64,000 nucleotides of DNA from Sphingopyxis panaciterrae (lineage in GTDB: Bacteria > Pseudomonadota > Alphaproteobacteria > Sphingomonadales > Sphingomonadaceae). Location of the stretch: NCBI RefSeq assembly GCF_011762125.1, contig NZ_JAASQN010000008.1, positions 1 through 64,000 of the forward strand, given 5' to 3'. The notes below the pieces were generated by a model. It was not told the DNA's origin, ran no database searches, and worked only from the letters and a program-made list of their open reading frames with translations. A program made the translations under genes and the position numbers. Below, in pieces: positions 7,647 through 58,178 of this stretch. Numbering within the stretch: position 1 is the first letter of the stretch; each line of letters begins with the position of its first letter.

Positions 7647-8771
7647 TCAGCCTCCCTGTTTGCGGACATAATTATGCGGAACGAATGGCATCGCGGCGAC
7701 GGTGCAGGGCACGCGCTTGCCGCGCACCTCGGCGGCGATCGCGGTGCCGGGCGCGGCGTGGTCGCGCGGCACATAGCCCATGGCGATCGGGGCGCCGACG
7801 CTGGGCGCAAACCCGCCCGAGGTGACAATCCCGATTTCGGTGTTTCCATCGAACAATTTGGCGCCTTCGCGCACCGGCAGCTTGCCCTCGACGAGCAGGC
7901 CGACGCGCTTGCGCGGGCTTCCGTCGGCGAGATGGCCAAGGATCCGCGCCGCGCCGGGAAAGCCGCCTTCCTCGCGGCGGCGCTTGCTGATCGCGAACGC
8001 CAGGTCGCCCTCGACCGGGTCGATCTCTTCATCGAGGTCGTGGCCGTAGAGCGGCAGTCCCGCCTCCAGGCGCAGACTGTCGCGCGCGCCGAGGCCGATG
8101 GGCTCCACCTCTTCCATCGCGCACAGCGCGTCGGCAAAGGCGGTGAGCGCCTCGTTCGGCAGCGAAATCTCGAACCCGTCCTCACCCGTATAGCCCGAGC
8201 GGCTGAGGCCGATCGCATGGCCGTTCCACGTCGCGCGCGCGGCCTGCATGAAGACCAGCGCCGAAGCCTGTGGCACCAGCCGCGCGAGCGCCTCGGCCGC
8301 CTTGGGGCCCTGCAAGGCGAGCAGGCCATAATCCTCTTCATGGTTGAGCGTGATATCGTCGGGAAGATTCTCGCGCAGATAGCCGATGTCTTCCCATTTG
8401 ACCGCGCCGTTGACGACGATGCCAAGCTGGTCGCCCTCGTTGGTGATCATCAGGTCGTCGAGGATGCCGCCATCTTCGCCGAGCAGCAGCGAATAGCGCA
8501 TCCGCCCGGGCTTCAGCGCCGAGATATCGCCGGGAACGAGCGCTTCGAGCGCTTCGGCAGCCCCCTCGCCCGACAGGCTGATCTGCCCCATATGGCTGAC
8601 GTCGAACAGGCCGGCATTCTCCCGGACCCACAGATGTTCGGCCATGATGCCATCGTACTGGATCGGCATCCAATAGCCGGCGAATTCGACCATCCGGCCG
8701 CCTTTCGCGCGGTGCCAGGCGTCGAGCGGCAGCGTCGCCGTTTCGACCGCAACTTCTTCATCTTCGCGCAT
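7647..8771 (-). CDS. gcvT: Glycine cleavage system aminomethyltransferase (T protein)
   Basis: A 374-aa tetrahydrofolate-dependent aminomethyltransferase that releases ammonia and makes 5,10-methylene-THF. Recognisable segments are LPLDAWHRAKGGRMVEFAGYWMPIQY, the GLFDVSHMGQ motif and SRSGYTGEDGFEI. I chose the ATG at 8771 because GGGAG sits eight bases before it; an in-frame ATG at 8795 would add eight residues without a clear ribosome site. It is the first gene after the glycine riboswitch and therefore the primary regulated cistron. Confidence 0.95.
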   Translation of the reverse strand: MREDEEVAVETATLPLDAWHRAKGGRMVEFAGYWMPIQYDGIMAEHLWVRENAGLFDVSHMGQISLSGEGAAEALEALVPGDISALKPGRMRYSLLLGEDGGILDDLMITNEGDQLGIVVNGAVKWEDIGYLRENLPDDITLNHEEDYGLLALQGPKAAEALARLVPQASALVFMQAARATWNGHAIGLSRSGYTGEDGFEISLPNEALTAFADALCAMEEVEPIGLGARDSLRLEAGLPLYGHDLDEEIDPVEGDLAFAISKRRREEGGFPGAARILGHLADGSPRKRVGLLVEGKLPVREGAKLFDGNTEIGIVTSGGFAPSVGAPIAMGYVPRDHAAPGTAIAAEVRGKRVPCTVAAMPFVPHNYVRKQGG

Positions 8772-8830
8772 ATTGCGTACTCCCGTCGTTGACATGGCAA
8801 GTCACGGCCGGATGCCGCCCTGTCGCCATG

Positions 8831-46984: not shown

Positions 46985-49342
46985 TCAGAATTTGGCGCGC
47001 AGCTTCACGCCATAGAGCCGCGGCGGCGCCGGATAGACCGCGAAGCTCGCGCTCTGTTCGGGGATCGGGAACGAGGTGATATTGTAATATTTGTTGAACA
47101 GATTTTCGACGTAGAATTCGACCGCATAATTCTGGTCGGGCCCGAAGTTGAGGCCGGCCCGGGCATTGACGATCGCATGGCCGTCGTTGGTCGTGAACCG
47201 CACCCCGACCGGATCGTTGATCGTGTTCGCGTCGCTGTTGCTGCGCCAGTCGACATGCAGCAGGCCGCCGACATTGTTGCTGATCTGCGGGGTCCAGGTC
47301 ACCGCGCCGGTGACCACATGCTTCGGCGAATTGGTGAGCGGCAGGCCATTGTCCGAACCGGCCGCCGGATCCTTCACTTCGGTATCGACATAGGAATAGC
47401 CGAGCGTGATCGAGAGGTCCGAAGCCTGCGCGCCGTTGCCGCCGAGGAAGCGGGTATCGAACGAGCCGCGATCAAGGTTGTAACCGCCCGATTTATAACC
47501 GCGGTCATAACCGCCATAGATCATGACCCGTTCGTCGAGCTTGATCGAAAGCTTGGCCGTGCCGGTCAGCTTGCTCTCGCTGCGCTTGTCGCGATAGATC
47601 CCGTTGAATTCGGGATTGACCACGGGGTTGCAGACGAGGTTGAAGATGGCGTTGCCAAGACCCGAAGGCAGACCCTGCAGGGCTTGACGATAGAGGCCAT
47701 AGCGGTCGCTCTGCAGCGTCGAGCACGACGCCAGGCTCGATTGCAGATCGGCGTTCAGCTTCTTCGATTCATGGTTGTAACGCAGACCCAGGGTCAGCGA
47801 GATATTATCGTTGAAGTCGATGATATTGTGGGTGAACAGTGCAAAGGCTTCGGTGTTGACGCGATAGGCGTCGCCGAGCTGCCCTTGGCCCGCCTGCGGC
47901 GAGGGCAGCGGGGTGAGGAAAGTGTCGAGCACGCCCGCCTGCGCGGCAGCCGCTGCCAGTTGTGCGTTCGACGCCAGCAGCACCTGACCGACCAGCGGCG
48001 AATTCGGGATCGAATTGAAAATCTGGAAACCCGTGGGACCAGGTACCGCGGCATCGGTCAGCGCGTTGACGAACGCGTCGACATATTGCGCACCCTGGGT
48101 GCCGAAGCGCGTCCGTTCGGTATATTTCAGCTTTTCATTGAGATAGAAGCCGCCGACGAGCCAGTCGACATGATCATCGAAGGCCGTGCCCTTGAGGCGG
48201 ATTTCCTGCGTGAAATCGCGCATGCCGATCGGCATATTTTCACGATAGGCGCGGTCGATTCCCGAGAAATCGACGTCCATGCCGCGGGTCGCCTTCCAGT
48301 CGCGCCATGCGGTGATCGACGTCAGCTCGACAGCGCCCAGATCCCAATCGAGCTGGCCCGACACACCCCATTCGCGCATCTTTTCGGTGAGGTCGCGATC
48401 GGGCGAGTAGGCCACTTCACGCTTCTTGGGATCGAACGGCGTTACGATGCCGGTCAGGCCGTTGGCGGCCGCCAGCCCCTGAATGACCGCGCTCGCGGCG
48501 AACGCCGGCGTCCCCGGCTGCGCGAAGCCCGAGTTGGTGTTGAGCGCGCCGCAGCATTGCTCGTTGGTCCGGGCATAGTCCGCGATCAGGCGGAACGAGA
48601 CATCGTCCTTTTCAAACAAAGCCTGCCCGCGCACCGACCAGCGGTCGAGATCGTTGAAGCGGCGATCGCTGTTCACATCTTTGATATAACCGTCGCGCTT
48701 GTGGTAGCCGCCGTCGATGCGCACCGCGAGCACATCCGAAACCGGCCCCGTGACACCGGCCTTCAGCTCGATCTCGTCCAGATTGCCATAGCTTGCTTCG
48801 GCATAGCCGCCGAGCTTGAACGCCGGTTTCTGGGTGATGATGTTGAGCGCACCCGCCGACGTGTTGCGGCCGAACAATGTTCCCTGCGGCCCGCGCAGGA
48901 CTTCGACGCGCTCGATCGGCGGCAAGTCGGCAAGCGCAAGACCGGCACGGGCACGGAAGACGCCGTCGACGAACACCCCGACCGACGGTTCGAAGCCGGG
49001 ATTGTCCCCCGCCGTGCCGATACCGCGGATGCGAAGCACCACGCCGGAAGCCGACGACTGACCCGTTGTAGCCTGGAAGCTCGGCGCAATCTGCCGAAGG
49101 CCGCGAATGTCGCTGATTCCCGAATTTTCGAGCTGTTCCCCGCTGACCACATTGACCGCGATCGGAATATCCTGCGACCGTTGCGCGCGGCCGGTCGCCG
49201 TGACGATGATGTCGCCGCTATAATCGGTGTCGTCGGCCGCGGTTCCGGCGTCTGCCGGAGCAGCATCCTGGGCAAAGGCATAAACGGGGGTAGTGGCGGC
49301 GCACAGCACGGTGGCGCCCAACAGAATGTTGCGCAAAGTCAT
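46985..49342 (-). CDS. TonB-dependent receptor (785 aa)
   Basis: An outer-membrane receptor with signal peptide (LLGATVLCAATTPVYAFA), TonB-box-like DIIVTATGR, plug motifs VVLRIRGIGTAGDNPG and VEVLRGPQGTLFGRNTSAGALNIIT, and a terminal strand LYGVKLRAKF. The start is the ATG after a GAGAGAGA-rich site; an earlier in-frame ATG at 49456 adds 38 non-signal residues. It follows the MFS-S9 pair on the same strand after 234 bases and may belong to the same nutrient system. Substrate unknown. Confidence 0.92.
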   Translation of the reverse strand: MTLRNILLGATVLCAATTPVYAFAQDAAPADAGTAADDTDYSGDIIVTATGRAQRSQDIPIAVNVVSGEQLENSGISDIRGLRQIAPSFQATTGQSSASGVVLRIRGIGTAGDNPGFEPSVGVFVDGVFRARAGLALADLPPIERVEVLRGPQGTLFGRNTSAGALNIITQKPAFKLGGYAEASYGNLDEIELKAGVTGPVSDVLAVRIDGGYHKRDGYIKDVNSDRRFNDLDRWSVRGQALFEKDDVSFRLIADYARTNEQCCGALNTNSGFAQPGTPAFAASAVIQGLAAANGLTGIVTPFDPKKREVAYSPDRDLTEKMREWGVSGQLDWDLGAVELTSITAWRDWKATRGMDVDFSGIDRAYRENMPIGMRDFTQEIRLKGTAFDDHVDWLVGGFYLNEKLKYTERTRFGTQGAQYVDAFVNALTDAAVPGPTGFQIFNSIPNSPLVGQVLLASNAQLAAAAAQAGVLDTFLTPLPSPQAGQGQLGDAYRVNTEAFALFTHNIIDFNDNISLTLGLRYNHESKKLNADLQSSLASCSTLQSDRYGLYRQALQGLPSGLGNAIFNLVCNPVVNPEFNGIYRDKRSESKLTGTAKLSIKLDERVMIYGGYDRGYKSGGYNLDRGSFDTRFLGGNGAQASDLSITLGYSYVDTEVKDPAAGSDNGLPLTNSPKHVVTGAVTWTPQISNNVGGLLHVDWRSNSDANTINDPVGVRFTTNDGHAIVNARAGLNFGPDQNYAVEFYVENLFNKYYNITSFPIPEQSASFAVYPAPPRLYGVKLRAKF

Positions 49343-49415
49343 GATGATCTCTCTCTCCAAAACCCACCGAGGCGCAGCCAAAGGCTTATCGGGAGATGCC
49401 CGGCAGTTGGAGATC

Positions 49416-49443
49416 GGTCTAACGCGCCATCGTCCCGCGTCAA
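49416..49443 (-). promoter_or_regulatory. Possible promoter of the 785-aa receptor
   Basis: On the minus strand TTGACG (plus 49438-49443) and TAGACC (plus 49416-49421) are 16 bases apart, about 75 bases before the ATG. A moderate -35 and weak -10, the best pair in the gap. Confidence 0.35.
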
Positions 49444-49576
49444 CGCACCGGCGCATGCGAGCGCGTTTTTCGGGAGGATTAGTGGCTAAAAAGCAACAGT
49501 TTACCCCAGGGCGCGCGCGGCGTGCCCAAAATGGCGGAAATATAAGGTGTACGGATATCGCGTCGGGCGCGCTTCC

Positions 49577-51568
49577 TCAGCCCGCCACGATATGACGTTC
49601 GCACCAGTCGACGATCCGCGCGGCGGAATCGAGATAGGCCGGATAACCACGCAAGCTGTGCCCATCCTCCGGGTAAATCGCCAGCGCGGCTTCGGCGCCC
49701 GCTTCCGTCAGCGCGCCGAAAAATTCGATCGCCTGTCCGGTCGGCGTATTCTTGTCGCGCCCGCCCGCCAGCACCAATGTCGGCGTCGTCACGCCCCCGG
49801 CGAAGAACACCGGACTCCGATCGAAATATTGCCCGCCCGGCCGCCGCGGCGAACCGTCGAGCAGCGCCTGATCGAACCAGGGGATCTGCGATGCATAATG
49901 CTGGCTGTACCAGTTGGCGACCGGCGAGATGGGAATGGCGGCGGCGAAGCGATCGGTCTGCGTCACCAGCCACGCGCTCATGAAGCCGCCATAGCTCGTC
50001 CCCGATACCCCGACACGCCCTGGATCGGCGATGCCGGCGGCGACGAGGCTGTCGATCCCCGCGAGATAGTCATGCATATCCTCCCCGCCCATATCGCGGT
50101 GGACCTTGCGCGCGAAATCCTGTCCGCGCCCGCCCGAACCGCGTGGATTGGGCAGCAGCAGCGCATAGCCTTTCGCCACCAGGACCGGCCCGGCCCGCAA
50201 GACCGCCGCATAGCGATTGCGGTGCGCCCAGACCGGGCCGCCGTGAATGTCGACGAACAGCGGCAGGTTCGACGCATCGCCATCGGGCAGGACCAGCCAG
50301 CCGCCAATTTCCAGCCCGTCGCGGCCGCGCCATCGATGATATCGCATGGTCCCCGGGATCGCGGGCGCCGGCGATGGCGCGAACCCGGCGAGCACGGCGG
50401 TTTCGCCATTCGACAGGCTGGCGATGGCGGGCGGTTCGGCATAGCCTTCGATCACTGCCAGCGCCCCGCCGCCGGGAGCGGGAACGGCTTTTGGATACCA
50501 GCCGCTGATCGTCAATCGGTCCGACGACCAATGTTCGCGTCGTTCGCCCGTCGCCAGATCGATCTCCCCGACCACCGTCTCGGCATCGCGCACGCCGGCG
50601 AACAGCAGGCGGCTTTCATCGCGCCAGCGGATATCGGAAACCTCGACACCGCCGGTATCGAGGACACGCTGCGCACCCTCCTCCCCCAGCGTGATCGGGC
50701 CGCAAACGAGTCCGCGATCGCTGCAAAAGGCTTCGATTACCGCCCAGTATCGCCCGTCGGGTGAACCTGCCGGCACACCCGCCTGTTCGGCGGGCACATA
50801 ACGTCCCCGCTCTTCGCCCGTTTCGGCATCGATGACGCGCAGCGACGCCTCGTACCAGCTGCCTTCGCCATGATGGTCGCTTGCGACAACGGCGAAACGG
50901 TCGTCGCCAAGCCATGCGGCTTCCCACACGTTGACCGGCGGCCGGGTCACCGCTTGCGGGGCGGCCATATCGTCCGACCAGCGATAGAGTCGCCGCCAGA
51001 GGTCTTGCGCGCCGGATGCCGCAACATCGGGCAGCCAGCTTGGCCCCGACGCTCCGCCCCGCAAGGCATAGCCACCCTCGGCGCCCGACACATCGGCACC
51101 AGCGTCGGCGCCCAAGATCAGAAGCGCGCTACCACCCGGTGCCCATGCGAGGGCTTCGACCCGGACGTCGACTGCGGCGGAAAAAAGCTGCTCGCGGGCT
51201 TCGGACAGGATAACGAGCCGTTCCCGCCCGTCTTCGCCAGCCTCGATGTAAGCGGCGCGGCCATCCGGCGAATTACGATACAGGCGGCCGCGTGCGACCC
51301 GATGTACCGCGCCGCCGGCCAGATCGATCCGGCAGACGATCGTTGCCGGCCCCTCCGCCAATGCGCCTTCGAAACATTGGCCCGTGAAATGAACGCTGCG
51401 CCCGTCTGCCGTCGGGTCGAGGTCCGCCGCCGTCCACAATATATCCTCGCCGGGGCGAAACAGCGTGCGGTAGAAATCGTTCACGTCGCGCGCCGCGCCC
51501 GCTTCGCGCATGTCTCGTTCAATCATTGCGGATTCCCTATTGTTTTTCGGATTGTTTTTCGGTGTCAT
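49577..51568 (-). CDS. S9-family serine peptidase (prolyl oligopeptidase / acylaminoacyl-peptidase type)
   Basis: A 663-aa protein with an N-terminal beta-propeller-like region (to about 400) and a C-terminal alpha/beta-hydrolase domain. The triad is visible: S525 in GTSYGGF, D605 in GGRDKNTP and H637 in EDGHSLRG, with NPRGSGGRGQDF before it. It has no signal peptide, so it should cut oligopeptides in the cytoplasm. The ATG overlaps the MFS stop (ATGA), a strong hint that the transporter imports its substrate. An ATG at 51526 is a possible alternative start. Confidence 0.9.
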   Translation of the reverse strand: MTPKNNPKNNRESAMIERDMREAGAARDVNDFYRTLFRPGEDILWTAADLDPTADGRSVHFTGQCFEGALAEGPATIVCRIDLAGGAVHRVARGRLYRNSPDGRAAYIEAGEDGRERLVILSEAREQLFSAAVDVRVEALAWAPGGSALLILGADAGADVSGAEGGYALRGGASGPSWLPDVAASGAQDLWRRLYRWSDDMAAPQAVTRPPVNVWEAAWLGDDRFAVVASDHHGEGSWYEASLRVIDAETGEERGRYVPAEQAGVPAGSPDGRYWAVIEAFCSDRGLVCGPITLGEEGAQRVLDTGGVEVSDIRWRDESRLLFAGVRDAETVVGEIDLATGERREHWSSDRLTISGWYPKAVPAPGGGALAVIEGYAEPPAIASLSNGETAVLAGFAPSPAPAIPGTMRYHRWRGRDGLEIGGWLVLPDGDASNLPLFVDIHGGPVWAHRNRYAAVLRAGPVLVAKGYALLLPNPRGSGGRGQDFARKVHRDMGGEDMHDYLAGIDSLVAAGIADPGRVGVSGTSYGGFMSAWLVTQTDRFAAAIPISPVANWYSQHYASQIPWFDQALLDGSPRRPGGQYFDRSPVFFAGGVTTPTLVLAGGRDKNTPTGQAIEFFGALTEAGAEAALAIYPEDGHSLRGYPAYLDSAARIVDWCERHIVAG

Positions 51569-52869
51569 TCTTCGGCGTCGGCTTTCAGATATTTCGCCGC
51601 GCGAAGCATGAAGACACCGGCCGGCAAGAAGGTCAGCGACATGATCATCAGCGCATAGCGCAGCCCCTCGGCCGGGCCGTAGATTTGCGACATATGATCA
51701 CTGATCGCGCCCGCCAGCACGGGGCCGAGTCCCAGACCGATCAGGTTGGCGAAGAAGAAGGCCAGCGCGACGGCCATTGCCCGCCGCTTACTCCCGCAGA
51801 CCGCGTGGAGCGCCGCGAAGATCGTCGGGACGGCGCCGGTCAGCAAAATCCCTCCGACCAGCGAGATCGGGATCATGACATAGAGCGATCCGACCGCGAA
51901 CGACCCGACGTAGAGCGGCAGGGCGACGATCAGCGCAATCCCGGGAAATCTGGCGGCCCAGGAGATGTCGCGCTTGGCCAAACGGTCACCCAACTTGCCC
52001 CCGCCCAGGTTGCCGACGACCGCGCCGACGGCCGACATGATGCCGAACAGCCCGCCCGCCTCGGCAACGGTCAACCCGTGGACGCGGATCATGAAGGATG
52101 CGGTGAAGACCAGTGCGCCATAGGCCATCAGGAAATAGACGACGAGCGCATAGACGATGTTGCGGTATGCCGGCTTCGCGAGCAGCAGCCGGATGCTCAC
52201 CCACGCATCTTCCGCTGCCTCGGGCGCGACGGCGAAGCGTGCGTGGAGCCGCGGTTCGCGCAAGACGAAACGCGCCGCGATCGCCAGCAGGAATCCCGGC
52301 AGGCCGATGACGATAAACGCCTCGCGCCAGCCATAATGCTGCGCCACCCAGCCGCCCGCCGCCATGCCGATGATATAGCCGGCCATCGACGACATCATAT
52401 AAAAGCCCAGCGCCCCCGCGCGCTGGTCGGGCGGATAATAGTCGGCGATGAGGCTCTGCGCAGGCGGAATCGCCCCCGCCTCGCCCGCCCCGACCCCGAC
52501 ACGCGCCAGCGCCAATTGCCAGAAATTCTGCGCCATGCCGCACAGCACCGTCATGATGCTCCAGACCATCAGCGACCAGACGATGATCTTCTGCCGGTTG
52601 CCGCGATCGGCCAGCCAGGCGATCGGGAGCCCGACCGTCACATAGAAAATCGCAAACGCCAGCCCCGTCATCAACCCGAGCATCGTGTCCGATACGCCGA
52701 ATTCCGCCTTGATCGGTTCGAGCAGCACGCCGATCACATTGCGGTCGGCATAGTTGGATGTGCCAGTGAGGAAGAGGATGAAGAGAAGCGTTCGTCGCTG
52801 ACCCGGCCCGTAGAGGTCCCAGGGGTTCGCGGCGCCCGCCGCATCGATCGCTTCCGATTTGCTGCTCAT
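51565..52869 (-). CDS. MFS transporter, Spinster-like
   Basis: A 434-aa transporter with about 12 membrane helices and the family patterns TSNYADRNVIGVLLEPIK, GLPIAWLADRGNRQ (loop 2-3 motif) and VGVGAGEAGAIPPAQSLIADYYPP. This group is common beside TonB receptors in sphingomonads and may carry the periplasmic product into the cytoplasm. The start is the second of two tandem ATGs, five bases after AAAGG. It overlaps the S9 peptidase gene by four bases and is divergent from the DUF885 gene. Confidence 0.9.
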   Translation of the reverse strand: MSSKSEAIDAAGAANPWDLYGPGQRRTLLFILFLTGTSNYADRNVIGVLLEPIKAEFGVSDTMLGLMTGLAFAIFYVTVGLPIAWLADRGNRQKIIVWSLMVWSIMTVLCGMAQNFWQLALARVGVGAGEAGAIPPAQSLIADYYPPDQRAGALGFYMMSSMAGYIIGMAAGGWVAQHYGWREAFIVIGLPGFLLAIAARFVLREPRLHARFAVAPEAAEDAWVSIRLLLAKPAYRNIVYALVVYFLMAYGALVFTASFMIRVHGLTVAEAGGLFGIMSAVGAVVGNLGGGKLGDRLAKRDISWAARFPGIALIVALPLYVGSFAVGSLYVMIPISLVGGILLTGAVPTIFAALHAVCGSKRRAMAVALAFFFANLIGLGLGPVLAGAISDHMSQIYGPAEGLRYALMIMSLTFLPAGVFMLRAAKYLKADAEE

Positions 52870-52963
52870 CATCACCTTTCCCGTGACGCGGCCGAACGCC
52901 TGCCCGCCGGAACGGGCGTCGAATGGCCATCGCAAATGGGTATCGTGAACCAGTGCACCATTC

Positions 52964-52979
52964 AATGCATAAATGCATT
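52964..52979. promoter_or_regulatory. Operator AATGCA-N4-TGCATT at the MFS/S9 promoter
   Basis: AATGCATAAATGCATT is a perfect palindrome with six-base arms and a four-base spacer, about 95 bases before the MFS start. It follows an AT-rich stretch on the minus strand (TTGAAA then GATAAAAT) that probably holds the promoter, so a bound repressor would cover the -10/start region. The same architecture recurs at 53101 and 57465. Confidence 0.6.
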
Positions 52980-53087
52980 ATTTTATCCTCGGTCATATTT
53001 TCAATTAATTTCAATATCTTAACTAGATATATACCGCGGATGGGCGGACAAATGCGACAGAGTGCTCCGAATTTCCGGGCAGATTCG

Positions 53088-53117
53088 TTGACAATCAAAC
53101 ATGCAGAAACGTATTTA
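53088..53117 (+). promoter_or_regulatory. Promoter of the DUF885 gene with internal operator
   Basis: TTGACA (53088-53093, perfect -35) and TATTTA (53112-53117) are 18 bases apart. Between them lies ATGCAGAAACGTAT (53101-53114): its first nine bases are identical to the site before tetR, while the second arm is imperfect. A repressor there would block RNA polymerase. Confidence 0.55.
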
Positions 53118-53154
53118 AATTGGCGAAGTCGATGACTCACCGGGAGAGATTGCC

Positions 53155-54873
53155 ATGATGCTCAGCCCCCTTGAAAATTTCGGTGCCGCCTTGCGCGTGG
53201 TGGACGACGTCTGGTCGGCGGCGAGCGCCGGCGGCTTTCTTGGTGACAAGTCCGCGCCCTTGCGATTGCCCGACATCGGCTTTGCAGCAGCGGCCGAACG
53301 GTCGGCGCTCGGCCGTACGCTGCTCGACCGCATCGCGGCCGTCGACGCTGACGCCCTGCCCCACGACCTCCCTTATACGCTGGAGATCGCCCGGCAGATC
53401 GCCGAGCGGTGGTCGCGCGAAGAGGCGTGGTACTGGCTCGTCTTCGACCCGCTGGGCGGCGGCTTTTATGCGATGTTCGCGCCGACCGCCTATTGCGGCG
53501 GTTTCCTGCTGAACACCTACCGGCCGCGGTTCGCGGGATACAGTTTTCGATCGGCGGGCGACGGCGACCGCTATGTCGGGCTCGTCCGCGACTATGGCCG
53601 GCTCATCCGGCAGATGCACGAACGGACCGCGGGCCAGGCCGAGCGCGGTATCTACATGCCGCGCCCGCAGTTCGAACAGGCCGTCCCGCTGATCGAAGGC
53701 CTGCGCGCCAGCACCGAAGCGCTGCTGACACCCGATGCCTCGCGGCTGACCGGAGTCGATGGCCCATCGTTGCTCAGGCAAATATCTGCAGCCATCGCGA
53801 GCGACGTCATGCCCGCATTCGACGCCTTCACCAACTTCCTCAAAAACCCTGCCTATGCCAAAAACGCGCCCGAAAGCGTCGGGATTTCGCAATATCCGGG
53901 CGGCGGCGATGTCTATGCCGAACTGGTTCGCCTGCACACCACGCTCGACCTGAACCCCGAACAGGTTCACGCAACCGGCCTCGCGCGCATGGCCGACATC
54001 CGCTCGCAAATGCGGACGCTGCTCGACGAGGCGGGTTTCACGGGCAACCCCGCCGACTATCTCGAGCAGATCAAAAACAATCCCAAATGGCGCGCCTCGG
54101 GCGCCGAGGACGTCGGCGCAGTGTTCCGGCGCTATATCGATCGCATCGCGCCGCACATCGACGCAACATTCAATTTCAAGCCGAAGGCGCCCCACGGCGT
54201 CGCACCGCTGCCCGATGCGTTCACCGACACGATGACCTTTGGCTATTATACGCCGCCGACCCCCACGGACGACCATGGCCGCTATGTCTTCAACGCGCCG
54301 AACCTGTCGCAGGGGCCGCTCAATCACATCGGCGCGCTCAACTATCACGAACTCGTGCCCGGGCATCATTTCCATCTCGCGACCCAGGACGAGAATGAAA
54401 CACTGCACCCGCTGCGCCGCAAGGCGTTCATCAACGCGTTCAACGAGGGCTGGGCCGAATATGCGGCAACATTGGCCGGCGAGATGGGCATGTATCCCGA
54501 ACCCGAGGAACGGTTCGGCCGGCTGATGATGGACGCGTTCCTGACCTGCCGGCTCGTCGTCGATACCGGCATGAACGCCTTTGGCTGGCCGCTCGAACAG
54601 GCGCGCGATTATATGCGCGAGAATGCATTCATGCCCGAAAAGGAGATCCGGTCGGAATCGGTTCGCTATTCGTCCGACATTCCGGGACAGGCACTCGCCT
54701 ACAAGCTCGGCGACACGGTCCTTTACGAAGCGCGGGAGAAAATGCGCGCCGCGCTCGGCAATCGCTTCGACCTTCGCGATTTTCATGACGCGGTACTCAA
54801 ACCCGGCGCCCTCCCGCTGCCGCTCGTGCAGCGCCATGTCGAAGACCAGACCCGTCGCATCGCCGCGAACTGA
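53155..54873 (+). CDS. DUF885 putative zinc metallopeptidase
   Basis: A 572-aa protein of the DUF885 family, viewed as metallopeptidase-like. The zinc site HELVPGHH is at 398-405, followed by FNEGWAEYA with a glutamate ligand at 431 or 435. A further conserved segment is RSESVRYSSDIPGQALAYKLG near the C-terminus. Many DUF885 proteins are exported lipoproteins, but this one begins MMLSPLENFGAAL without a signal peptide, so it is probably cytoplasmic like the S9 peptidase. The start follows GGGAGAG. It is divergent from the MFS/S9 pair and precedes a TonB receptor. Confidence 0.85.
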   Translation: MMLSPLENFGAALRVVDDVWSAASAGGFLGDKSAPLRLPDIGFAAAAERSALGRTLLDRIAAVDADALPHDLPYTLEIARQIAERWSREEAWYWLVFDPLGGGFYAMFAPTAYCGGFLLNTYRPRFAGYSFRSAGDGDRYVGLVRDYGRLIRQMHERTAGQAERGIYMPRPQFEQAVPLIEGLRASTEALLTPDASRLTGVDGPSLLRQISAAIASDVMPAFDAFTNFLKNPAYAKNAPESVGISQYPGGGDVYAELVRLHTTLDLNPEQVHATGLARMADIRSQMRTLLDEAGFTGNPADYLEQIKNNPKWRASGAEDVGAVFRRYIDRIAPHIDATFNFKPKAPHGVAPLPDAFTDTMTFGYYTPPTPTDDHGRYVFNAPNLSQGPLNHIGALNYHELVPGHHFHLATQDENETLHPLRRKAFINAFNEGWAEYAATLAGEMGMYPEPEERFGRLMMDAFLTCRLVVDTGMNAFGWPLEQARDYMRENAFMPEKEIRSESVRYSSDIPGQALAYKLGDTVLYEAREKMRAALGNRFDLRDFHDAVLKPGALPLPLVQRHVEDQTRRIAAN

Positions 54874-54968
54874 GCGAACCAACCAGCGGCCGCCGCGCGC
54901 CATATCTCGTTTAAAGTACATTAATGAATTTTATTATACGGCCACCTGCGTCAAGCTGGAGCGGGAAT

Positions 54969-54992
54969 AATATGCTATAATATAAGCATATT
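54969..54992. promoter_or_regulatory. AT-rich perfect palindrome upstream of the 750-aa receptor
   Basis: AATATGCT, eight bases (ATAATATA), AGCATATT: perfect eight-base arms, 146 bases before the receptor start and 96 after the DUF885 stop. The surrounding 54910-55080 is unusually AT-rich for this genome and likely contains the receptor promoter. A regulator-binding site is likely; the regulator is unknown. Confidence 0.5.
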
Positions 54993-55137
54993 TTTGCCAT
55001 ATTCTTGGAAGCGTATCGTCGGGCTCCTCGAAATCCGCCAAACTCGGGGTTGATTTTCCAGAATCTATATATGACAGTTCTGCATAAAATAGCGACTCAA
55101 GTCGCAGAGGAACATGTCACCATAAGGGAGGTTCTCG

Positions 55138-57390
55138 ATGCAACGAAAATGGGTCATTCACACATCCTGCGCGGTATTTGCCATGGCGATGCCCCAGCTG
55201 GCCGCGGCGCAGGATAGGCCGGCGGGCTCGGACTATAACGACGGCAACGACATCGTCGTCACCGCAAGCAAGCGCGCCGAAAAGCTGCAGGACGTTCCCG
55301 CCGCCATCACGGCTGTCTCCTCGGAGAAGATCGAGGCGCTCGGCATTCGCGACTTCCGCGATTACGCGACCCTCGTGCCGGGGCTCAGCCAGCGCGACAG
55401 CGGCGCCCCGGGGCTTGGATCGATCATCCTCCGCGGGCTCAATTCGGGCCCGCAGCAGGTGTCGAACACCACCGCCGTCTACATCGACGAAACCCCCTTC
55501 ACCGCCAGCGGCTTCCTGTCGGCCGGCGCCCTGCTGACGCCGTCGCCCGAACTGGCGGAGGTCGAACGCATCGAAGTGCTGAAGGGCCCGCAGGGCACGC
55601 TCTATGGCGCGAGCAACCTCGGCGGCCTGGTTCGCATCATCACCAAAAAGCCCGATCTGTCGACATTCTCCGGCATGGCGGGCGGCGAGGTTTCGACCGT
55701 CGCGCATGGCGAAATGGGCTTCATGGTCCGCGGTTCGGTCAATGTCCCCATCGTCAAGGATCAGCTGGCGCTGACCGCAACGGGTTATTACCGGCGCGCG
55801 GGCGGCTTTACCGACAATGTCCAGACGGGATCGGAGGATGTGAATCGGTCGAACCTTTATGGCGGGCGCGTCGCGTTGCGCTATGCGCCGACCAGTGATT
55901 TCACGATCGATCTCAGCGGCATCTACCAGAATATCGAAAACCTCGGCTATTCACTCCAGACGCTCGTGCCGGGAAGCTTCGATCCCGCTTTTGAAAAATA
56001 TGCCTATTCCAGCTTCGCCGACCTGGGATCGGAGATCAAATATCGCATCGTCAACGCCAATGTCGAATATCGTGTCGGCATCGGCACCTTCACTGCCTCG
56101 GGCAGCTATGCGCGATACAAATCGCGGACCGAAACCGATGCGACGGCGACCTATATTCCGGTGGCGCGCGCCGTCCTGGGGCCGATCGCCGAAACGACCT
56201 TCGGCGTTCCGATCGATACTTTGCTTCCCGCCAATTCGAAGGCGCGGTTCCTCGCGTCCCCGAACATGGAAAAATGGACCGGCGAAGTCCGGTTCGCCTC
56301 CGACCGGCTGGGGCCCGTCGAGTTCATGGTCGGCGGCTTCTACACCAACGAAGACAATATCTATTATACCACCGTTTTCGCGCATGACGCCCAGGGCAAG
56401 CTCCGCACCGCGCCGTTCGACCAGCTTGTGAAGGCGACGACGACATCGCGTTATGAGGAGATCGCGGGCTTCGGCAACCTGACCTTCTATCTCAGCGATA
56501 CGCTCGATATCACCGGCGGCCTCCGTTACGCACACAACAAGCAGGTCGCGGGCACCGGTGGCCCCGGCGGCATCACCTATTATCTTCCCCGCACCCCGCG
56601 GATATTCGACTTCAGCGACAATTCGCTGAGCTATCTAGCGACCTTGCGCTGGCGCCCCGCACGCAACATCAGCGCCTATCTGCGCGCGGCGAGCGGCTAC
56701 CGCCCCGGCGGCCCGCAGACCAATCCGACCCCGCCGCCGGGTGCCCAGACATTTGTCCGGCCTGACACGGTGTGGAATTACGAAGCGGGCATCAAAGGCT
56801 CGGTCCTCGACGGCGCCCTCGCCTTCGACATTTCGGCTTTTCACATCGACTGGAAGGATATTCAGCTCAATTCGCTGGTCAACGGCATCATTCTTCAGGG
56901 TAATGCGGCGAGCGCCACGGTCGACGGCTTCGAATTGCAGCTTACCGCGCGGCCTTCCGACCTGCTGACCGTCAGCATCAGCGCCGGGCACACCGACGGC
57001 AAGATCAAGGCGATCGATCCGCTGGCGTCCTCGGCCACCGGCGCCCGGGCCGGCGACAAACTGCCCCTCACCCCAAGCTGGACGACGTCACTGATCATCG
57101 ATCATCAGCTGCCTTTGGGCAGTTCGATGACCGGCAACGTCGGGGCAACGCTCCGCTTTCAGTCGGACATGCCCGCCACCTACCCGGCGCTCGACCCGTC
57201 GCGGCAACAGAAGCTGCCCGACGTCACGACTGTCGACCTGCGCGCCAGCATGACCTTCGACGAACGTTTCACCGCGCAACTGCGCGTCGACAATCTCTTC
57301 GACAAGCTCGGCTTTACCAACGTCACCATCGACGGTGCCAATCTGATCCGGCCGCGGACAATATCGCTCGGTCTCTCGACGAAATTCTGA
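55138..57390 (+). CDS. TonB-dependent receptor (750 aa)
   Basis: An outer-membrane receptor with signal peptide (CAVFAMAMPQLAAAQ), TonB-box-like DIVVTASKR, plug motifs SIILRGLNSG and IEVLKGPQGTLYGASNLGGLVRIIT, and the terminal strand ISLGLSTKF. Position between the DUF885 peptidase and a TetR regulator suggests uptake of a peptide or peptide-like compound, but no specificity motif is visible. GGGAGG lies six bases before the ATG, and a terminator follows. Confidence 0.93.
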   Translation: MQRKWVIHTSCAVFAMAMPQLAAAQDRPAGSDYNDGNDIVVTASKRAEKLQDVPAAITAVSSEKIEALGIRDFRDYATLVPGLSQRDSGAPGLGSIILRGLNSGPQQVSNTTAVYIDETPFTASGFLSAGALLTPSPELAEVERIEVLKGPQGTLYGASNLGGLVRIITKKPDLSTFSGMAGGEVSTVAHGEMGFMVRGSVNVPIVKDQLALTATGYYRRAGGFTDNVQTGSEDVNRSNLYGGRVALRYAPTSDFTIDLSGIYQNIENLGYSLQTLVPGSFDPAFEKYAYSSFADLGSEIKYRIVNANVEYRVGIGTFTASGSYARYKSRTETDATATYIPVARAVLGPIAETTFGVPIDTLLPANSKARFLASPNMEKWTGEVRFASDRLGPVEFMVGGFYTNEDNIYYTTVFAHDAQGKLRTAPFDQLVKATTTSRYEEIAGFGNLTFYLSDTLDITGGLRYAHNKQVAGTGGPGGITYYLPRTPRIFDFSDNSLSYLATLRWRPARNISAYLRAASGYRPGGPQTNPTPPPGAQTFVRPDTVWNYEAGIKGSVLDGALAFDISAFHIDWKDIQLNSLVNGIILQGNAASATVDGFELQLTARPSDLLTVSISAGHTDGKIKAIDPLASSATGARAGDKLPLTPSWTTSLIIDHQLPLGSSMTGNVGATLRFQSDMPATYPALDPSRQQKLPDVTTVDLRASMTFDERFTAQLRVDNLFDKLGFTNVTIDGANLIRPRTISLGLSTKF

Positions 57391-57399
57391 CAATATCTT

Positions 57400-57433
57400 G
57401 CGATCGCCCGGCTGCGGGCGGTCGCAGTTTTCT
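57400..57433 (+). terminator. Terminator after the 750-aa receptor
   Basis: GCGATCGCCCG (57400-57410) pairs with CGGGCGGTCGC (57415-57425), one G-T pair, loop GCTG, followed by AGTTTTCT. It lies ten bases after the stop and separates the receptor from the tetR gene. Confidence 0.85.
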
Positions 57434-57464
57434 GATCCGGAACGGCTTACTCGCCGTTCGCTAG

Positions 57465-57480
57465 CATGCAGAAATGCATG
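57465..57480. promoter_or_regulatory. Operator CATGCA-N4-TGCATG upstream of tetR
   Basis: CATGCAGAAATGCATG is a perfect palindrome with six-base arms and a four-base spacer. It shares the ATGCA-N4-TGCAT core with the site at 52964 and nine consecutive bases with the one at 53101. Its place in the leader of a TetR gene fits autoregulation. Confidence 0.6.
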
Positions 57481-57560
57481 ACGACTTTGTTGTTCCCGGA
57501 AAATATGACATGAGCGTATCGGGCGGCGCGCCGGACTGCGCCGCGATACAGGGAAAACAC

Positions 57561-58178
57561 ATGGTTGGACGGACGCCGAAAAATACGGTACGGGACTGGA
57601 TCGAGGCCGCACAGCGGACCTTGGTCGACGAAGGTATATCGGGCCTGAAAGTGGACCGGCTGGCCAATCGCCTTGGTGTGACGCGCGGCGGTTTCTATCA
57701 TAATTTCAAGGATCGGGACGATTTCTTCGACCAGTTGATCCGGCACTGGGAAGACACCTGCCGTTTCCTGCCCGACGCCCCGCCGCCGGCCCGCCCCGCC
57801 GACGCGATCGACTGGTTCGACCGGGTGATCAGCCGCCTGATCGATGCCGATGGCTATGACTATCATTTCGACCTCGCAGTGCGCGAATGGGCGCGCGCCG
57901 ACAAACGCGCCGAATGGGCGGTCGAACGCGCCGACCGCGAACGGCTCGACACGCTACAGAAATTCTTCGAAGCGATCGATTATGACAGCGAGCATGCGGC
58001 GATCCGGGCACGCGTCTTCTACTATCACCAGATCGGCTATTACGCGATCGGCGTGCAGCAGAGCATTTCCGAACGGCGGAAGAACGCGCAGCTTTATCTC
58101 GACATATTGTGCGGCGAGCAAGCCATAGCGGCCGCCCGCGCGAGTTCGCGAAAGGCCCGCAAGCCGAAGGCTGCCTGA
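57561..58178 (+). CDS. TetR/AcrR-family transcriptional regulator
   Basis: A 205-aa regulator. The helix-turn-helix (VDRLANRLGVTRGGFYHNFKD, about 31-51) is a clear TetR match; the C-terminal part (residues 60-190) is an all-helical ligand domain without known specificity. In-frame ATGs exist at 57474 and 57510, but the 57561 start has AGGGA six bases upstream and begins MVGRTPKNTV, the normal TetR opening. The 57474 ATG would fall inside the palindrome. Likely represses the adjacent peptidase, transporter and receptor genes. Confidence 0.85.
   Translation: MVGRTPKNTVRDWIEAAQRTLVDEGISGLKVDRLANRLGVTRGGFYHNFKDRDDFFDQLIRHWEDTCRFLPDAPPPARPADAIDWFDRVISRLIDADGYDYHFDLAVREWARADKRAEWAVERADRERLDTLQKFFEAIDYDSEHAAIRARVFYYHQIGYYAIGVQQSISERRKNAQLYLDILCGEQAIAAARASSRKARKPKAA

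Follow-up and report, generated by a model that had tools for sequence, protein, structure and literature searches.

A candidate operator for a TetR-family regulator at peptide-uptake, peptidase and sarcosine oxidase genes of Sphingopyxis

Two perfect palindromes in a 64,000-nucleotide stretch of Sphingopyxis panaciterrae DNA (hereafter the window) raise the question of whether they are operators of the TetR-family regulator encoded beside one of them and, if so, which pathway that regulator controls. An earlier note had reported AATGCA-TAAA-TGCATT (52964-52979), CATGCA-GAAA-TGCATG (57465-57480), the sequence ATGCAGAAACGTAT at 53101-53114 between TTGACA (53088-53093) and TATTTA (53112-53117), and a half-site TGCAT before the TonB receptor gene (55081-55085), all of which we found at these coordinates on re-reading the sequence. 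In the window, two copies of the exact motif ATGCA-N4-TGCAT are present where 0.04 would be expected (two or more in 0 of 100 shuffles); the whole 4.84-Mb genome has three, against a single occurrence of the reversed control motif. By these counts, and by its recurrence at the same promoters of related genomes, the motif stands above chance and is conserved before orthologues, which had been set beforehand as a check. With up to two mismatches allowed, the window shows no enrichment (18 matches vs. 23 expected), and the degenerate sites therefore count as evidence only where they are conserved. Comparison of relatives widened the consensus to ATRCA-N4-TGYAT. From the analyses below we conclude that the window TetR probably represses its own gene, the MFS-S9/DUF885 divergon and related operons via this motif, in a pathway of peptide import, cleavage and N-methyl oxidation; the link between regulator and site, taken by itself, is highly probable.

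The genes and sites concerned are collected in Table 1. MFS and S9 form one minus-strand unit in which the start of the S9 gene overlaps the MFS stop, and the DUF885 protein is related to PDB entries 3o0y, 3iuk and 3u24. Neither the S9 nor the DUF885 N-terminus has an obvious signal peptide by eye, and cleavage by these enzymes is therefore probably cytoplasmic. More specific assignments of two products were rejected: the receptor scores below the cut-off as a siderophore receptor (TIGR01783, 150.7 vs. 223.5 bits), as does the S9 protein as a lasso-peptide isopeptidase (NF033523, 65.3 vs. 400 bits). A further TonB receptor gene (46985-49456) was dropped as a regulon member, its counterparts at that place in two relatives (G213, G212) being only 37% identical.

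Table 1 Genes and candidate regulatory elements of the locus, in window coordinates.
Feature	Coordinates	Strand	Remarks
S9 prolyl-oligopeptidase-family peptidase	49577..51568	-	PF00326 151 bits; 73-83% orthologues
MFS transporter	51565..52872	-	PF07690 182 bits; 86-91% orthologues in same place
Candidate operator ATGCAtaaaTGCAT	52965..52978		MFS-S9 / DUF885 divergon; overlaps predicted -10 of MFS promoter
Degenerate candidate operator ATGCAgaaaCGTAT	53101..53114		Spacer of DUF885 promoter; two mismatches, statistically weightless alone
DUF885 putative metallopeptidase	53155..54873	+	PF05960 397.5 bits; HELVPGHH in translation; 75-84% orthologues
Degenerate site GTACAttaaTGAAT	54916..54929		Directly 3' of DUF885 stop; kept in window, G213, G212; weaker in G246, G243
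Degenerate site NNACA-gttc-TGCAT	55072..55085		TonB-receptor leader; contains earlier half-site; kept in 5/5 aligned genomes
TonB-dependent receptor	55138..57390	+	PF00593, PF07715; 80-93% orthologues
Terminator-like hairpin	57398..57427	+	Between receptor and tetR; 13-pair stem, T-run
Candidate operator ATGCAgaaaTGCAT	57466..57479		Before tetR; proposed autoregulation
TetR-family regulator, 205 aa	57561..58178	+	PF00440 36.6 bits (cut-off 24); recognition helix VTRGGFYHNF

The palindrome said to lie just before tetR is indeed upstream of the gene, although the mechanically listed reading-frame start at 57474 overlaps it; the conserved start is at 57561 (MVGRTPKNT), which places the end of the palindrome 81 bp from the gene. 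Orthologues 80–94% identical to the window TetR share this start, and the close relatives comprise proteins of 80–84% identity in four loci (L004-L007) and of 59% in L008. The structure model of the regulator (monomer, pLDDT 84.6) is all-helical with ten helices and has a TetR-type fold, including the C-terminal domain for ligand binding and dimerisation. TetR-family regulators lead among the matches listed in a PDB structure search with this model, with at least 42 matches at E <= 0.001 with TM scores of 0.34–0.66 by query length. No close sequence relative was found in PDB or NCBIfam; nearest by DNA-binding domain are the multidrug repressors AcrR and MtrR, and AcnR (NCBIfam MtrR, AcrR; PDB AcnR, AcrR, MtrR). 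The scores of the window TetR against these NCBIfam models (31 and 27 bits, cut-offs 280 and 271) are much too low for it to be an MtrR or AcrR itself, and its regulon is a different one.

A comparison of all 5-mer palindromes at spacers 0–12 in the upstream regions of 12 close tetR genes puts ATGCA-N4 in first place. The site is exact in six of the 12 regions and has one mismatch in three (L004, G213b, G212b), giving nine promoters at which binding is predicted; the remaining three (L007, L008, G243b) have no site before tetR. The terminator-like hairpin separates the receptor gene from tetR and thereby suggests that tetR has a promoter of its own; our promoter scan found no sigma70-like promoter between the two genes. 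Just 3' of the tetR operator, a block like TTTGT..AAAATATGACATG (57484-57515) is kept in most relatives, and the scan found no sigma70 promoter fit in this block either. The MFS/DUF885 site is kept in all four aligned genomes, once as ATACAtaaaTGCAT, and also in G243, and the degenerate site in the DUF885 promoter is likewise kept in four of four, reading ATACAgataCGCAT in G246. Promoter-like elements of the MFS gene lie on the minus strand (TTGAAA from 53004, AATAAT ending at 52977), a weak prediction with two scan matches in the region vs. 0.8 in shuffles. Both this operator and the one before soxB, the sarcosine oxidase gene discussed below, overlap a predicted -10 hexamer by the same two bases, the hexamers being consensus matches only; an operator overlapping the -10 element is in the usual position for a repressor. 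The leader of the TonB receptor gene additionally contains a perfect inverted repeat, GCGACT-CA-AGTCGC (55092-55105), kept in five of five aligned genomes, which is perhaps the site of a second regulator or an RNA hairpin.

Beyond the window, the relaxed motif ATRCA-N4-TGYAT occurs eight times in the S. panaciterrae genome. Six of these sites fall in apparent upstream gaps, with start codons judged by eye: before tetR, MFS/DUF885, soxB, an S9 gene, a TetR paralogue and a TonB receptor gene. The other two (C1:1595280, C5:220586) were set aside as lying inside long reading frames. Among the six genus genomes with a TetR orthologue of at least 75% identity, 26 of 37 relaxed sites adjoin such regulon genes, three of the 26 at the paralogue; this motif was suggested by L004, L005 and L007 and is thus partly derived from loci that it later scored. 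Nine sites in G212, G213 and G243 were also set aside inside long reading frames, a test that is weak in G+C-rich DNA, where a good site in L122 was likewise covered by mechanical reading frames. Homologues of amidohydrolase, S9 or DPP-IV genes are found close to three of these sites (L114, L117, L118).

A probable addition to the regulon is sarcosine oxidase. In varying combinations, several relatives carry soxB, soxA, purU, folD, gamma-glutamyltranspeptidase, amidohydrolase and M20 or S12 genes near TetR, and the operator ranks best in soxB upstream regions among all 5-mer palindromes with the third base relaxed, at spacers 0–12. The own-genome SoxB and SoxA score above their cut-offs (TIGR01373, 651.9 vs. 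529; TIGR01372, 1241 vs. 1164), PurU is above its NCBIfam cut-off, and SoxB matches the tetrameric sarcosine oxidase chain 2gag_B (E 1.8e-131). For the reading frame at the position expected of soxG, NCBIfam gave no match at E <= 1e-20. By family-level models SoxB and SoxA would form a tetrameric sarcosine oxidase, with N-methylglutamate or another N-methyl amino acid as a possible alternative substrate. In S. panaciterrae the sox cluster (C1:314-328 kb) is unlinked to the window tetR, with one site ahead of soxB (C1:320334) and another ahead of a second S9 gene (C1:325908); the 19.9 kb read in the surroundings of two gamma-glutamyltranspeptidase genes contain no site. Within the window, the product of a minus-strand reading frame (7647-8795) resembles SoxA in its folate-binding part, at 30% identity. 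The regulon envisaged in the earlier note, a TonB receptor, an MFS carrier and two peptidases, holds in so far as the sites co-occur with TetR and mark one regulon; it was drawn too small, since sarcosine oxidase, folate and gamma-glutamyltranspeptidase genes are to be added.

The foremost rival reading is that the regulon serves the use of ordinary peptides, e.g., proline-rich ones, and that sarcosine oxidase is an incidental neighbour in relatives. The window genes alone encode a transporter, a receptor and peptidases, S9 and X-Pro peptidases recur among the loci, and the TetR genes of the window and of two relatives (G213a, G212a) are unlinked to sox genes. However, ATRCA-N4-TGYAT stands directly upstream of soxB in nine of nine genomes with a 59–100% identical TetR, including S. 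panaciterrae itself and the distant L008. Moreover, TetR homologues of 37–41% identity adjoin soxB or purU in other loci (L009, L012, L014-L018, L048), although no such gene occurs within 1.5 kb of TetR in L013, L019 and L020. We regard the ordinary-peptide reading as unlikely, if still the strongest competitor to a pathway that includes N-methyl oxidation.

A second rival holds that the palindromes belong mainly to the TetR paralogue at C3:446783, which is 34% identical to the window TetR, and that the latter acts elsewhere or as a minor partner. The paralogue has a site of its own, ATACAgaaaTGTAT, conserved in G212 and G213, and the own-genome soxB site and the site at C1:577504 share its A/T-only form; because of this form, the paralogue may serve the own soxB gene, instead of or together with the window TetR. 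The two regulators differ in type: close relatives of the window TetR have His at recognition-helix position 47 (GFYHNF or GFYHHF), and aligned relatives of 34–43% identity have Trp or, in one case, Tyr. Three genomes (G201, G246, G243) contain only His-type copies at E <= 1e-20, yet sites are present, and all 11 of their regulon sites have G or C at position 3 in at least one half, in a count with one site entered twice (L066/L102). By contrast, at 12 Trp/Tyr-type loci (Tyr in L052, Trp in the rest; the overlap of L049 with L101 removed) all 23 genomic places, 21 of them distinct by 44-bp context, have A or T on both halves, with L048 (two A/T sites, one G/C site inside its tetR) and L024 and L026-L028 (eight sites, all A/T) left out of the count. 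Both sites of the window are G/C on both halves, unlike the paralogue form. At single loci, the His-type L008 has a G/C site before soxB, the distant, Trp-type L009 carries ATACActacTGTAC, which differs from the A/T form at a single position, in its soxB-tetR interval, and L020, with His at position 47, has no site within its 3.5 kb. Taken together, the covariation makes predominance of the paralogue quite improbable, and we retain the window TetR as the probable regulator of the G/C-type sites.

On one side of the paralogue gene is a DAO-family oxidase gene, and on the other a series of genes of the S9, S15 X-Pro peptidase and M81/MlrC types (L094:8190-16684, on C3). A microcystin link, considered in view of the M81/MlrC and X-Pro peptidase genes beside the paralogue, was rejected, as nothing connects the window with microcystin. 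Another cluster, on C5 (L097:4313-13068), contains DAO oxidase, TonB receptor, TetR, DPP-IV-like and MFS genes. Four TetR genes of only 30–33% identity (L024, L026, L027, L028) carry, directly upstream, a pair of ATACA-N4-TGTAT sites with a spacing of about 44 bp, and these pairs extend the operator class to a wider TetR group.

Whether the palindromes go with this regulator at all was addressed across 80 genomes of the genus, and the sites were found to depend on its presence, in line with the co-occurrence that the earlier note had proposed to look for. A TetR homologue at E <= 1e-20 is present in 13 of the 80 genomes and is at least 75% identical in six, S. panaciterrae included. Relaxed sites average 7.0 per genome in these 13 vs. 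1.75 in the 67 genomes lacking it (p = 7e-8), and the excess is also seen with the six close orthologues alone (p = 2e-4), p values that overstate independence because the genomes are related by descent. The reversed control motif averages 1.6 vs. 1.4 (p = 0.67). Some genomes lacking TetR nevertheless have many relaxed sites (G270 eight, G254 six, G273 and G274 five each). At soxB, 13 of 16 copies in TetR-bearing genomes have the site vs. none of six in TetR-less genomes (p = 0.001; 22 copies in 19 genus genomes), five of these six being distant copies, 53–57% identical to the query; the three copies without a site are in G042, G220c and G220d. Because those five are distant, the sixth, in G230, is the fair control: this genome keeps homologues of soxB (81%), MFS (65%) and DUF885 (57%) and lacks both TetR and, over 16 kb, the site. 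Outside the genus the site is found at only three of nine soxB copies, exact in G174 and with a single mismatch in G150 and G085; G011 carries a 37–38% identical TetR beside folD-soxB and no site even at one mismatch. That the palindrome serves an unrelated regulator or is a structural DNA element, with TetR hitch-hiking beside it, is highly improbable in view of the genus-wide dependence, the covariation with residue 47 and the site-less stretch of G230. Chance palindromes can practically be dismissed, for although the relaxed motif occurs even in genomes lacking TetR, it is conserved at the same promoters and only about 4e-5 sites are expected per 100-bp upstream region.

Given the computed sites, their conservation and co-occurrence and their predicted placement at promoters, we infer physical binding and repression as follows. 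The TetR repressor would bind ATRCA-N4-TGYAT palindromes over or beside promoters, shutting off tetR, the MFS-S9 operon, the divergent DUF885 and TonB receptor genes and further pathway operons elsewhere. Release of the repressor would follow when an inducer, in all likelihood the compound taken up or one of its cleavage products, binds the C-terminal domain. Judging from gene content, a peptide-like compound may enter via the TonB receptor and the MFS carrier and be cleaved by S9, DUF885 and gamma-glutamyltranspeptidase-type enzymes. The tetrameric sarcosine oxidase would then oxidatively demethylate an N-methyl amino acid such as sarcosine, and the resulting one-carbon unit would pass through folate (FolD, PurU). 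The presence of peptide import and cleavage genes together with sarcosine oxidase and folate genes suggests that the N-methyl amino acid is released from a peptide. Prolyl-type peptidases may accept N-methyl residues; the literature passages searched contained no support for their accepting sarcosine. An N-methyl peptide is thus a plausible substrate, on which we would place somewhat less than even confidence, and N-methylglutamate or N-acylsarcosine routes are possible alternatives. More tentative still is the fuller proposal of a dedicated scavenging system for N-methylated (sarcosine-type) peptides, from TonB uptake to folate recycling, controlled by a TetR clade in which an A/T to G/C operator change, together with a Trp to His helix change, allowed two paralogous regulons to diverge in one genome.

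Known regulators of sarcosine metabolism differ from this arrangement. GbdR and SouR are AraC-type activators, and we know of no peptide genes under their control. Both regulate sarcosine catabolism in Pseudomonas aeruginosa, according to the passages available from PMC8864220. AmtR of Corynebacterium glutamicum ATCC 14067 is likewise a TetR-family protein and controls creatine and creatinine degradation to glycine via sarcosine; compared by description, it is a central nitrogen regulator of an actinobacterium, and the available passages describe no peptidase/TonB-receptor regulon (PMC8864220). SoxR of Bacillus thuringiensis resembles the present regulator in being dedicated and in acting at an inverted repeat before soxB, but in the passages available it is a sigma54-dependent activator and not a TetR repressor (PMC4941409). 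Among the entries listed in searches of the open-access literature, none describes the window regulator. The TetR mode of control is ordinary; the regulator and its regulon are apparently undescribed.

An uncharacterised clade of sphingomonad TetR proteins thereby gains a candidate operator, regulon and nutrient class, and the two paralogues offer a natural pair in which a change at a single residue of the helix seemingly goes with a change at a single base of the operator. Should the nutrient prove to be an N-methylated peptide, the system would point to a way for bacteria in the environment to reclaim peptides on which ordinary proteases have little effect.
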